From: an uncultured Roseibacillus sp.
GTDB taxonomy: Bacteria > Verrucomicrobiota > Verrucomicrobiia > Verrucomicrobiales > Akkermansiaceae
Length of the DNA: 35,683 nucleotides
Assembly (NCBI GenBank): GCA_937949965.1
Contig: CALFBF010000108.1
Location: 1-35,683 of the forward strand
Direction of reading: 5' to 3'
A program made the position numbers and the translations under genes. Below are positions 12,621-28,536 of this stretch, piece by piece. The notes under the pieces were generated by a model. That model was not told the origin of the DNA. It was given only the letters and a program-made list of their open reading frames with translations, and did not search any database. Position 1 is the first letter of the stretch, and each line of letters starts with the position of its first letter.

Positions 12621-13382
12621 TTACGTTGGAGCAGAGAATACTTTTCCCGCAATTCTAGCTCCGAGGGGAGCACCGAGGAAGGGTGCAACGATGTAGACAA
12701 GGAACCAACTACTGCCATTAGCTTGGAAGGGATAGAGGCCCCAGCCTGCTAGGGTGGAAAAGAGACGAGGAGCAAAGTCCCGCGCGGGGTTGAAGCCAGC
12801 CATCGAGATTGGCGCAAAGATGGAAATGAGGATGGTGAGTGCAAGGCCAATCCCAACTGGAATGAACCAATTAGGGAAGGGACTACTACGGTGCTTGAAG
12901 ATGAGTCCAAAGACAAAGAAGGCGAGTAAGAGGGTGCCGAGGAATTCTGCTAGAAAAGCGTTCCAAAGTGGGATGTTAGAGGAGTGGAATTCCCCGAAAA
13001 TTTTTGCGGAGGCTTCACTCCCTGCCGACCCGCGTGTCAGTCCTTGGGCGGCTTCCAAGGCCGTAATGGAAGGACCGAACAAGCCGTAGAGAAGAGCTGC
13101 CGCCAGAAAGGCTCCCATGAACTGTCCTGCGAAGTAGTGGGGGATTTTTTTCTTTGAAAAACCGTCAACACTCACGAAAGCAATCGTGATCGCAGGGTTT
13201 AGATGAGCTCCGCTCAGTGATCCTGTTAGCGTAATCGCTAAGGCTACCGCGATACCCCAGATGGCAGCGATTTGGAACAGCCCTGAAAAGGCGTCAAAAC
13301 AAACAGCGCCTGCGACGGCCCCGCAGCCGAAGAAGACAAGGAGAAAGGTGCCCAGAAGCTCGCCAGTGAATTCTTTTTTCAT
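12621..13382 (-). CDS. glpF: MIP family channel, aquaglyceroporin/GlpF type
   Basis: Two NPA boxes: SGAHLNPAITIAF and AGFNPARDFAPR (NPARD typical of glycerol facilitators). Confidence 0.85.
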   Translation of the reverse strand: MKKEFTGELLGTFLLVFFGCGAVAGAVCFDAFSGLFQIAAIWGIAVALAITLTGSLSGAHLNPAITIAFVSVDGFSKKKIPHYFAGQFMGAFLAAALLYGLFGPSITALEAAQGLTRGSAGSEASAKIFGEFHSSNIPLWNAFLAEFLGTLLLAFFVFGLIFKHRSSPFPNWFIPVGIGLALTILISIFAPISMAGFNPARDFAPRLFSTLAGWGLYPFQANGSSWFLVYIVAPFLGAPLGARIAGKVFSAPT

Positions 13383-17365: not shown

Positions 17366-17908
17366 CTATCGGCCGGTAGCAGGAACCTTACTCAGAAGTT
17401 CTTTCACTTGCTTCTGATAAAGATCACCATTGCCCCCATGATAGGGTCCCGCCATGTGATTATGGCGCAGTTTCCCTGTGTGATCGAAGATCAAGTAATA
17501 AGGAACATACTTCACCGGAGCACCAGGGAAATGGGTGTGATACATCACCGAGGTATTTTGCAGCTCTTTTGTCCAACCTTGCCTTTGCAACGCCGCCAGT
17601 GCGCCCTCTCGCGAGCCATGTTGGCAGTAGGAAGCGATCATGTGGAAAGGTTTGCCCTCGAGAGACTTGGCCAAACTGACCATGCCTGGGGTGAGTTGTC
17701 GGCAACCCACTCATCCTCCCCAGATCACGAGGAGGGTGACTTTTCCCTTCAGATCAACAGGTGCTTTCACTTCTGGTCCTGCCCAATGAAGCCCCCACTC
17801 AATGCCTTTAGCAGAGCCTTCGACTTTCGTATTATCCTGCCGACCCGCATGTAGCGGCAGCGTGAGAAGAAGGGAGTAGAGCAGGGAACGAAGCATCATA
17901 ATATTCAT
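17366..17908 (-). CDS. TlpA/thioredoxin-like exported protein with in-frame TGA (17711-17713); candidate selenoprotein or nonsense-interrupted gene
   Basis: The two ORF-track proteins are in one frame separated only by TGA: ...VDLKGKVTLLVIWGG[TGA]VGCRQLTPGMVSLAKSLEGKPFHMIASYCQHG...VKYVPYYLIFDHTGKLRHNHMAGPYHGG. The TGA sits 3 residues before a Cys (UxxC). Confidence 0.6.
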
Positions 17909-18482: not shown

Positions 18483-18986
18483 TTACTTCTTCCGTTTCGG
18501 CAGGCGCTTCCCTTCCAAGCGGGCTTGGATGAGGTTGGGGCATTGGCCTTTGGAGCGGAGCTGTTCGCAGGAGGCTTCGATGCGGAGGGATTGTTTGACG
18601 GGCCGGAAGCCGAGACGACGGGTGAGGCAGTCGTTGAGGACTTCGAGATGATCGTCCTCGAACTCGAGCACTTTGCCGCAATCGATACAGACGAGATGAT
18701 TGTGGGTCGGGCGGTCGAGGAAGTTGGGATCGTAAGTGGTCTGGCCGTCACCGAGGTCGATCTCGTGCAGGAGGTCGGCTTCGACGAGGAGAGAGAGGGT
18801 GCGGTAGACCGTGGCCCGGGAGGCAGAGGAGCCTTGTTTGCGAAAGCGGTCAAAGAGTTCTTCGGCAGTAAAGTGTTCGTCAGAGGCAAAGATGAGTTCC
18901 ACAATGGCATCGCGCTGTGCTGTTTGACGGAGTCCTTTTGAACGGATAAAGGCGTCGAGTTTTTCGCGAATAGAAGGAGGCATCAT
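18483..18986 (-). CDS. fur: Fur-family transcriptional regulator
   Basis: LRQTAQRDAIVELIFASDEHFTAEELFDRFRK, SRATVYRTLSLLVEADLL, HNHLVCIDCGKVLEFED. Confidence 0.93.
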   Translation of the reverse strand: MMPPSIREKLDAFIRSKGLRQTAQRDAIVELIFASDEHFTAEELFDRFRKQGSSASRATVYRTLSLLVEADLLHEIDLGDGQTTYDPNFLDRPTHNHLVCIDCGKVLEFEDDHLEVLNDCLTRRLGFRPVKQSLRIEASCEQLRSKGQCPNLIQARLEGKRLPKRKK

Positions 18987-27655: not shown

Positions 27656-27849
27656 TCGGATGGAGAGATAAGGTCTTTACGAAATGAAAATCTACTAGAA
27701 TTCTAGTTTTTGATTTAAGCGAAAGTAAGCTTCATGCTAACTGTTTAAAAATCATTAACTTAAGTAATGATTGCTCTTCAATTTATTTAAAATTTCTGAG
27801 CCAATCTTTTGTGGCTATTTCGTGAGAATGTGCGTCTACTCGCTTGCTT

Positions 27850-28536
27850 ATGAAAAAATATGTAGCGGAATTTATCGGGACCTTCTGGTTGGTATTAGGA
27901 GGTTGTGGTAGCGCAGTTTTGGCTGCCGGAGTGGCGGATGTCGGCATTGGGTGGGTCGGTGTTTCTTTCGCTTTTGGTTTGACTGTCCTCACTATGGCTT
28001 ATGCTATTGGTCATATATCAGGTTGTCATCTTAACCCTGCTGTTTCCATTGGTCTCTGGGCTGGAGGACGATTTTCTTCGAAGGAACTTGGACCTTATAT
28101 TGTGGCGCAAGTGGTGGGAGGAGCCTTGGGTGCGCTTGTTCTTTTCTTAATCATGTCTGGGAGAGAGATCGGTGGTTTCGCGACTAATGGTTTCGGCGAA
28201 ACATCTCCCGAAGGATTTGGGCTGATGCCTGCTTTTTTGACTGAGGTTGTGATGACCGCTTTCTTCCTCATTATTATTCTTGGTGCAACCGATGGCCGTG
28301 CTCCGGCAGGATTTGCGCCCATTGCGATTGGCTTAGGTTTGACCCTCATTCACCTCATCAGTATTCCGGTTACGAATACGTCCGTAAACCCCGCTCGAAG
28401 CACTGCCGTTGCACTCTTCGTTGGTGGAGCTGCCATGAAGCAACTTTGGCTCTTCTGGGTAGCCCCCATTATCGGTGGTTTCCTTGGTGCCGTGATTTAT
28501 AAGTTCATTGGTTCTTCCGACGACGCTAATAGCTAA
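27850..28536 (+). CDS. aqpZ: Aquaporin Z
   Basis: [56 protein letters not shown]. Confidence 0.93.

Follow-up and report, generated by a model that had tools for sequence, protein, structure and literature searches.

Thioredoxin-fold proteins that carry selenocysteine (Sec) in a UxxC motif have long been known and have been tabulated (PMC13188914, PMC9312934). The closest described systems are the redoxin family and thiol-disulfide isomerase-like UxxC selenoproteins (PF08534; cd02966; PMC13188914 Table 1). The protein described here, encoded within a window of 35,683 nucleotides (the whole stretch of DNA that we analysed, from an uncultured Roseibacillus sp.), has in common with them the thioredoxin fold and Sec in the first position of UxxC, but it differs in three ways: its Trp-to-Sec spacing is one residue shorter (WGG-U rather than WGxx-U/C), no Cys members were found for its subfamily, and it scores below the Pfam gathering cut-off for Redoxin PF08534 (14.8 vs 26.6 bits). 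With ResA, TlpA, CcmG and YkuV it shares the fold and the position of the CxxC motif, although those proteins carry Cys, not Sec, and are without a SECIS. The ResA-like selenoprotein model NF041054 (WAxxUGC_long) is similar in kind, but is built on a UGC motif rather than UxxC.

Within the Verrucomicrobiota, TlpA-like proteins of the WGVN(U/C)PPC type (L013, L084, L089, L108) and the FWGxWUGPC type (L012-L026) share the fold and the Sec/Cys column with the window subfamily, and nearly all of their Sec forms have, as it does, a hairpin of SECIS type whose loop contains a G and lies at +30 to +35; they nevertheless form clades separate from it, with different hairpin stems. We found no paper in the open-access literature that names a WGG-U subfamily and no survey of the Verrucomicrobia selenoproteome. 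WGG-U is apparently an uncatalogued, new subfamily of a known kind, the UxxC thioredoxin-fold proteins, although the “redoxin family” and “thiol-disulfide isomerase-like” entries of PMC13188914, which we compared by description only, could include it. With it, the Verrucomicrobiota selenoproteome gains a well-supported subfamily that is Sec-only, and its existence suggests that Akkermansiaceae relatives put selenium into several TlpA-like redox proteins.

The read-through frame and its homologues

On the minus strand, the frame from 17908 to 17366 is interrupted solely by a TGA at 17711-17713 and closes with a TAG at 17366-17368. With the TGA read as Sec, it yields a protein of 180 aa (MNIMMLRSLLYS...VTLLVIWGG-U-VGCRQLTPGMVSLAK...) with the motif WGG-U-VGC, in which the putative Sec is residue 66 and the first position of UxxC; our re-reading of the frame thus agreed with the preliminary description in coordinates and motif. 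Automated annotation would cut this gene into two ORFs. The N-terminus (17846..17908, minus strand) is hydrophobic and resembles a signal peptide; its exact start is uncertain (M1 or M4/M5), and the homologues suggest that translation probably begins at M4/M5 (17899 or 17896) rather than at 17908.

Among 387 genomes belonging to the same order, a search recovered 11 close loci, spread over 9 genomes of a single Verrucomicrobiota family and with protein identities of about 44-75%; in the named collection they carry the labels Akkermansiaceae, Verrucomicrobiales and Roseibacillus. Every one of these loci has exactly one in-frame TGA within the match, always at the identical codon (11/11, WG[GS]-U-[VIP]GC), and none has Cys there (0/11). 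The frame beyond the TGA is open in all 11, in one case up to the contig edge at which the locus ends. Downstream of the UGA, substitutions follow the same coding-type pattern as upstream, in keeping with the earlier remark that the intact downstream region is atypical of decay, and this likeness on both sides, combined with a TGA shared at one codon by all the loci, argues that the arrangement is not due to chance.

Among more distant relatives, the same column holds either Cys (WGVNCPPC) or Sec (WGVNUGPC, FWGIWUGPC), so that the TGA does occupy the first position of a redox motif, as had been proposed, with Sec (UGA) in the close homologues and Cys further away. A profile search of 260 genomes of the family and 388 of the phylum turned up no additional member of the subfamily and no Cys version. 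In a maximum-likelihood tree of 59 domains, the WGG-U sequences form one clade (support 100/100), and the remaining Sec forms are placed in at least two separate positions.

The thioredoxin/TlpA-like domain (17384..17755, minus strand) was assigned by profile comparison against solved structures, which matched YkuV (6e-8), the redoxin-domain protein 28db, DipZ, ResA and TlpA; in these matches the Sec column coincides with the N-terminal Cys of CxxC. An AlphaFold model of moderate confidence (pLDDT 58.8, pTM 0.58) shows a thioredoxin fold in which UxxC opens the first helix, and Foldseek groups it with TlpA/ResA/CcmG-type thioredoxins (probability 1.00). Both lines of evidence back the earlier reading of a TlpA-like thioredoxin. 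Besides PF08534, the window protein falls short of Pfam AhpC-TSA PF00578 (12.5 bits; gathering cut-off 26) and NCBIfam TlpA NF047696 (22.1 bits; curated cut-off 230), and it has no match to NF041054 (cut-off 300), to which one subfamily member reaches E 0.096. Since it attains no curated cut-off in Pfam or NCBIfam, the subfamily appears to be unmodelled; it looks Sec-only and restricted to the Verrucomicrobiota. Two members of the alignment have a weak C-terminal match to SHD1, and a C-terminal extension is present in L006, L008 and L009.

Candidate SECIS hairpins and decoding machinery

In the bacterial SECIS model, a stem of 4-16 bp carries a loop of 3-9 nt whose first two positions include a G, at a distance of 16-37 nt downstream of the UGA (PMC13188914). 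Two hairpins had been pointed out in the window, and both form when the RNA from +1 to +50 is folded (z = -2.2). The proximal one, GUGGGUUG-CCGA-CAACUCAC (+1 to +20; 17691..17710, minus strand), does exist as originally written, but its stability is particular to the window and it is absent from the homologues; we rejected it as a SECIS. The other, UGGUC-AGUUU-GGCCA (+29 to +43; 17668..17682, minus strand, loop 17673-17677), had been ranked as the weaker candidate. It is instead the conserved one, and it, not the +1 to +20 hairpin, is the SECIS candidate proper.

This conclusion comes from aligning the 11 loci codon by codon: codons 77-80, GTC-(A/G)GT-(T/C)TG-GCC, have a third-position identity of 1.00, whereas the mean is 0.41, and 0 of 100,000 permutations reached as high a value. 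These codons were picked after viewing the alignment, yet no other stretch of the entire gene scores higher. They specify the stem-loop UGGUC-(A/G)GU(U/C)U-GGCCA, and because AGT-TTG and GGT-CTG are always paired, loop bases 1 and 4 change jointly (A with U, G with C). The hairpin satisfies the bacterial model, with a stem of 5-6 bp and the loop at +34/+35; the apical loop starts 33 nt past the UGA, within the 16-37 nt range but near its far end, much as the preliminary description had it.

We then scanned the homologues with the explicit, published bacterial constraints (PMC13188914) at a threshold of -3 kcal/mol or better. A hairpin fitting the model is found in 21/23 Sec homologues (loop at +30 to +35) vs 2/36 Cys homologues (p = 4e-10, which overstates independence because the Sec and Cys sets are each related internally). 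The scan is permissive: when the window sequence is recoded at random with synonymous codons, 11% of the results have an equally good hairpin; given this, and the short upper stem, the evidence lies in the conservation of the hairpin rather than in its stability. Other Sec clades have different stems at the same distance, such as ACGAGC-GGUC-GCUCGU and CAUCU-GGUCG-AGAUG. A set of Sec forms with the hairpin and Cys homologues without it offers a means of calibrating SECIS prediction for the Verrucomicrobiota. An RNAalifold consensus of a 93-nt alignment gave long-range pairs, none of them changed on both sides, and was not used.

Most of the decoding machinery is present in the window's genome, a metagenome-assembled genome (MAG) of 2.73 Mb that is 90.6% complete. 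It has a tRNA-Sec (63.9 bits, above the cut-off; called tRNA-SeC with anticodon TCA by ARAGORN), selB (341 bits; cut-off 242) and selA (460 bits; cut-off 268). Neither a profile nor a congener protein used as query detected the fourth gene, selD, in this MAG, and the weak matches that the search returned seem, judging by ORF length, to be relatives of ThiL/PurM. Because selD, which has an in-frame TGA of its own, is present in all three same-genus genomes, missing sequence is the simplest explanation for the gap. The presence of the Sec genes, which had been named earlier as a check, was thus borne out for selA, selB and tRNA-Sec(UCA) in this genome and for selD in the congeners. An in-frame TGA is found in selD of most of the relatives that have the gene (L051-L055), SelD being itself a selenoprotein.

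Competing readings and possible function

We consider it very probable that the gene encodes a secreted TlpA/ResA-like thiol:disulfide oxidoreductase whose UGA is decoded as Sec through SelB, tRNA-Sec and the +29 to +43 SECIS. A lone TGA in a small gene from one MAG is a common signature of decay, and a Cys or Trp codon could have mutated or been misread as TGA; however, the same TGA codon recurs at 10 other loci, nearly all from separately assembled genomes, with the frame open past it, coding-type substitutions downstream and invariant hairpin codons. A pseudogene is accordingly a negligible prospect, and a sequencing error is very unlikely. Mechanical ORF calling gives just the split to be expected if the UGA were a true stop, with a short secreted peptide followed by a separate gene re-initiated at the GTG at 17710. 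Yet in the model such a break would split the thioredoxin fold after its first strand and ahead of the active-site helix, and the Cys homologues are single chains; further, the UGA is followed by a codon for Val, Ile or Pro and thus by no conserved start codon, and we regard re-initiation as highly improbable.

There is an equally slight chance that a suppressor or an altered code inserts a different residue at the UGA, Cys or Trp for instance. The wider homologues do have Cys in this column, but TGA is an ordinary stop here, ending 6/24 window genes, which argues that it has not been reassigned, and it is also the terminal stop of the homologues L060, L062 and L063. The genome encodes a dedicated tRNA-Sec along with selA and selB, and the SECIS-like hairpin goes with Sec, not with Cys. 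Each of the refuting conditions first put forward that could be checked came out in favour of a UxxC thioredoxin-fold selenoprotein.

For this Sec-containing oxidoreductase, we infer the following course. Under the direction of the in-frame hairpin, whose apical loop starts 33 nt past the codon, SelB and tRNA-Sec(UCA) would decode the UGA at 17711-17713, and the product would probably be exported by way of its N-terminal signal sequence. The selenolate of Sec66, the N-terminal active-site residue of UVGC, may then attack a disulfide or oxidised group of a putative partner, or a peroxide, and the resolving Cys69 would release the substrate, as in CxxC thioredoxins.

The function might instead be that of a peroxide- or peroxiredoxin-type enzyme directed against oxidative stress rather than of a general disulfide oxidoreductase, a possibility that deserves mention but that we think unlikely. 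In its favour, a KatG-type peroxidase lies convergent and directly downstream of the Sec gene at two loci (L057, 6629-9298; L059, 6588-8942), followed in L057 by a Fur-family gene; in the window, a Fur-family regulator gene (18483..18986, minus strand; PF01475, 103 bits) lies 574 bp upstream; and there is faint similarity to AhpC-TSA/Redoxin. This synteny is not conserved across the loci, however (KatG in 2, Fur-family genes in 2), and since most of the other loci are without the KatG/Fur context, a role in peroxide defence is merely a lead. The UxxC with its resolving Cys is typical of TlpA/ResA reductases, and YkuV, ResA, CcmG and TlpA come out on top in the structural and profile comparisons.

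More speculatively, and in our view rather improbably, these genes may represent an obligately Sec-dependent Akkermansiaceae clade whose one-residue-shorter W-G-G-U loop could not work with Cys, used against extracytoplasmic peroxide or disulfide stress alongside neighbouring KatG and Fur/PerR-type genes, and joined in certain genomes to an SHD1 domain or a TraB/M8-peptidase-like one. A family without a Cys form would permit testing why Sec is retained.

Other Sec genes and side observations

The FWGxWUGPC sequences (L012, L015, L016, L019, L025, L026) form a Verrucomicrobiota Sec clade of their own, in which a very stable hairpin of SECIS type, CACGAGC-GGUC-GCUCGUG, spans +25 to +42; in L026, UGPS replaces UGPC. 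A degenerate DNA pattern detected no other FW..UGPC gene in the window's own genome. Sec proteins of the WG(V/I)NU(G/P)PC type (L013, L018, L084, L089, L108) are intermingled with Cys homologues on the tree; L108 comes from a genome of the same genus, and L018 is without a convincing hairpin.

TlpA-like Sec genes are clustered on one contig (L063, G326 C115, 370-2826 and 4097-4894, and L009), and a further FWGTWUGSC gene lies near this cluster. One G326 copy (TGA at 811) is a fusion with a TraB/PrgY and M8-peptidase-like region. Finally, two genes in the window (12621-13382 and 27844-28536), both on the one 36-kb contig, read like aquaporin/MIP channels.
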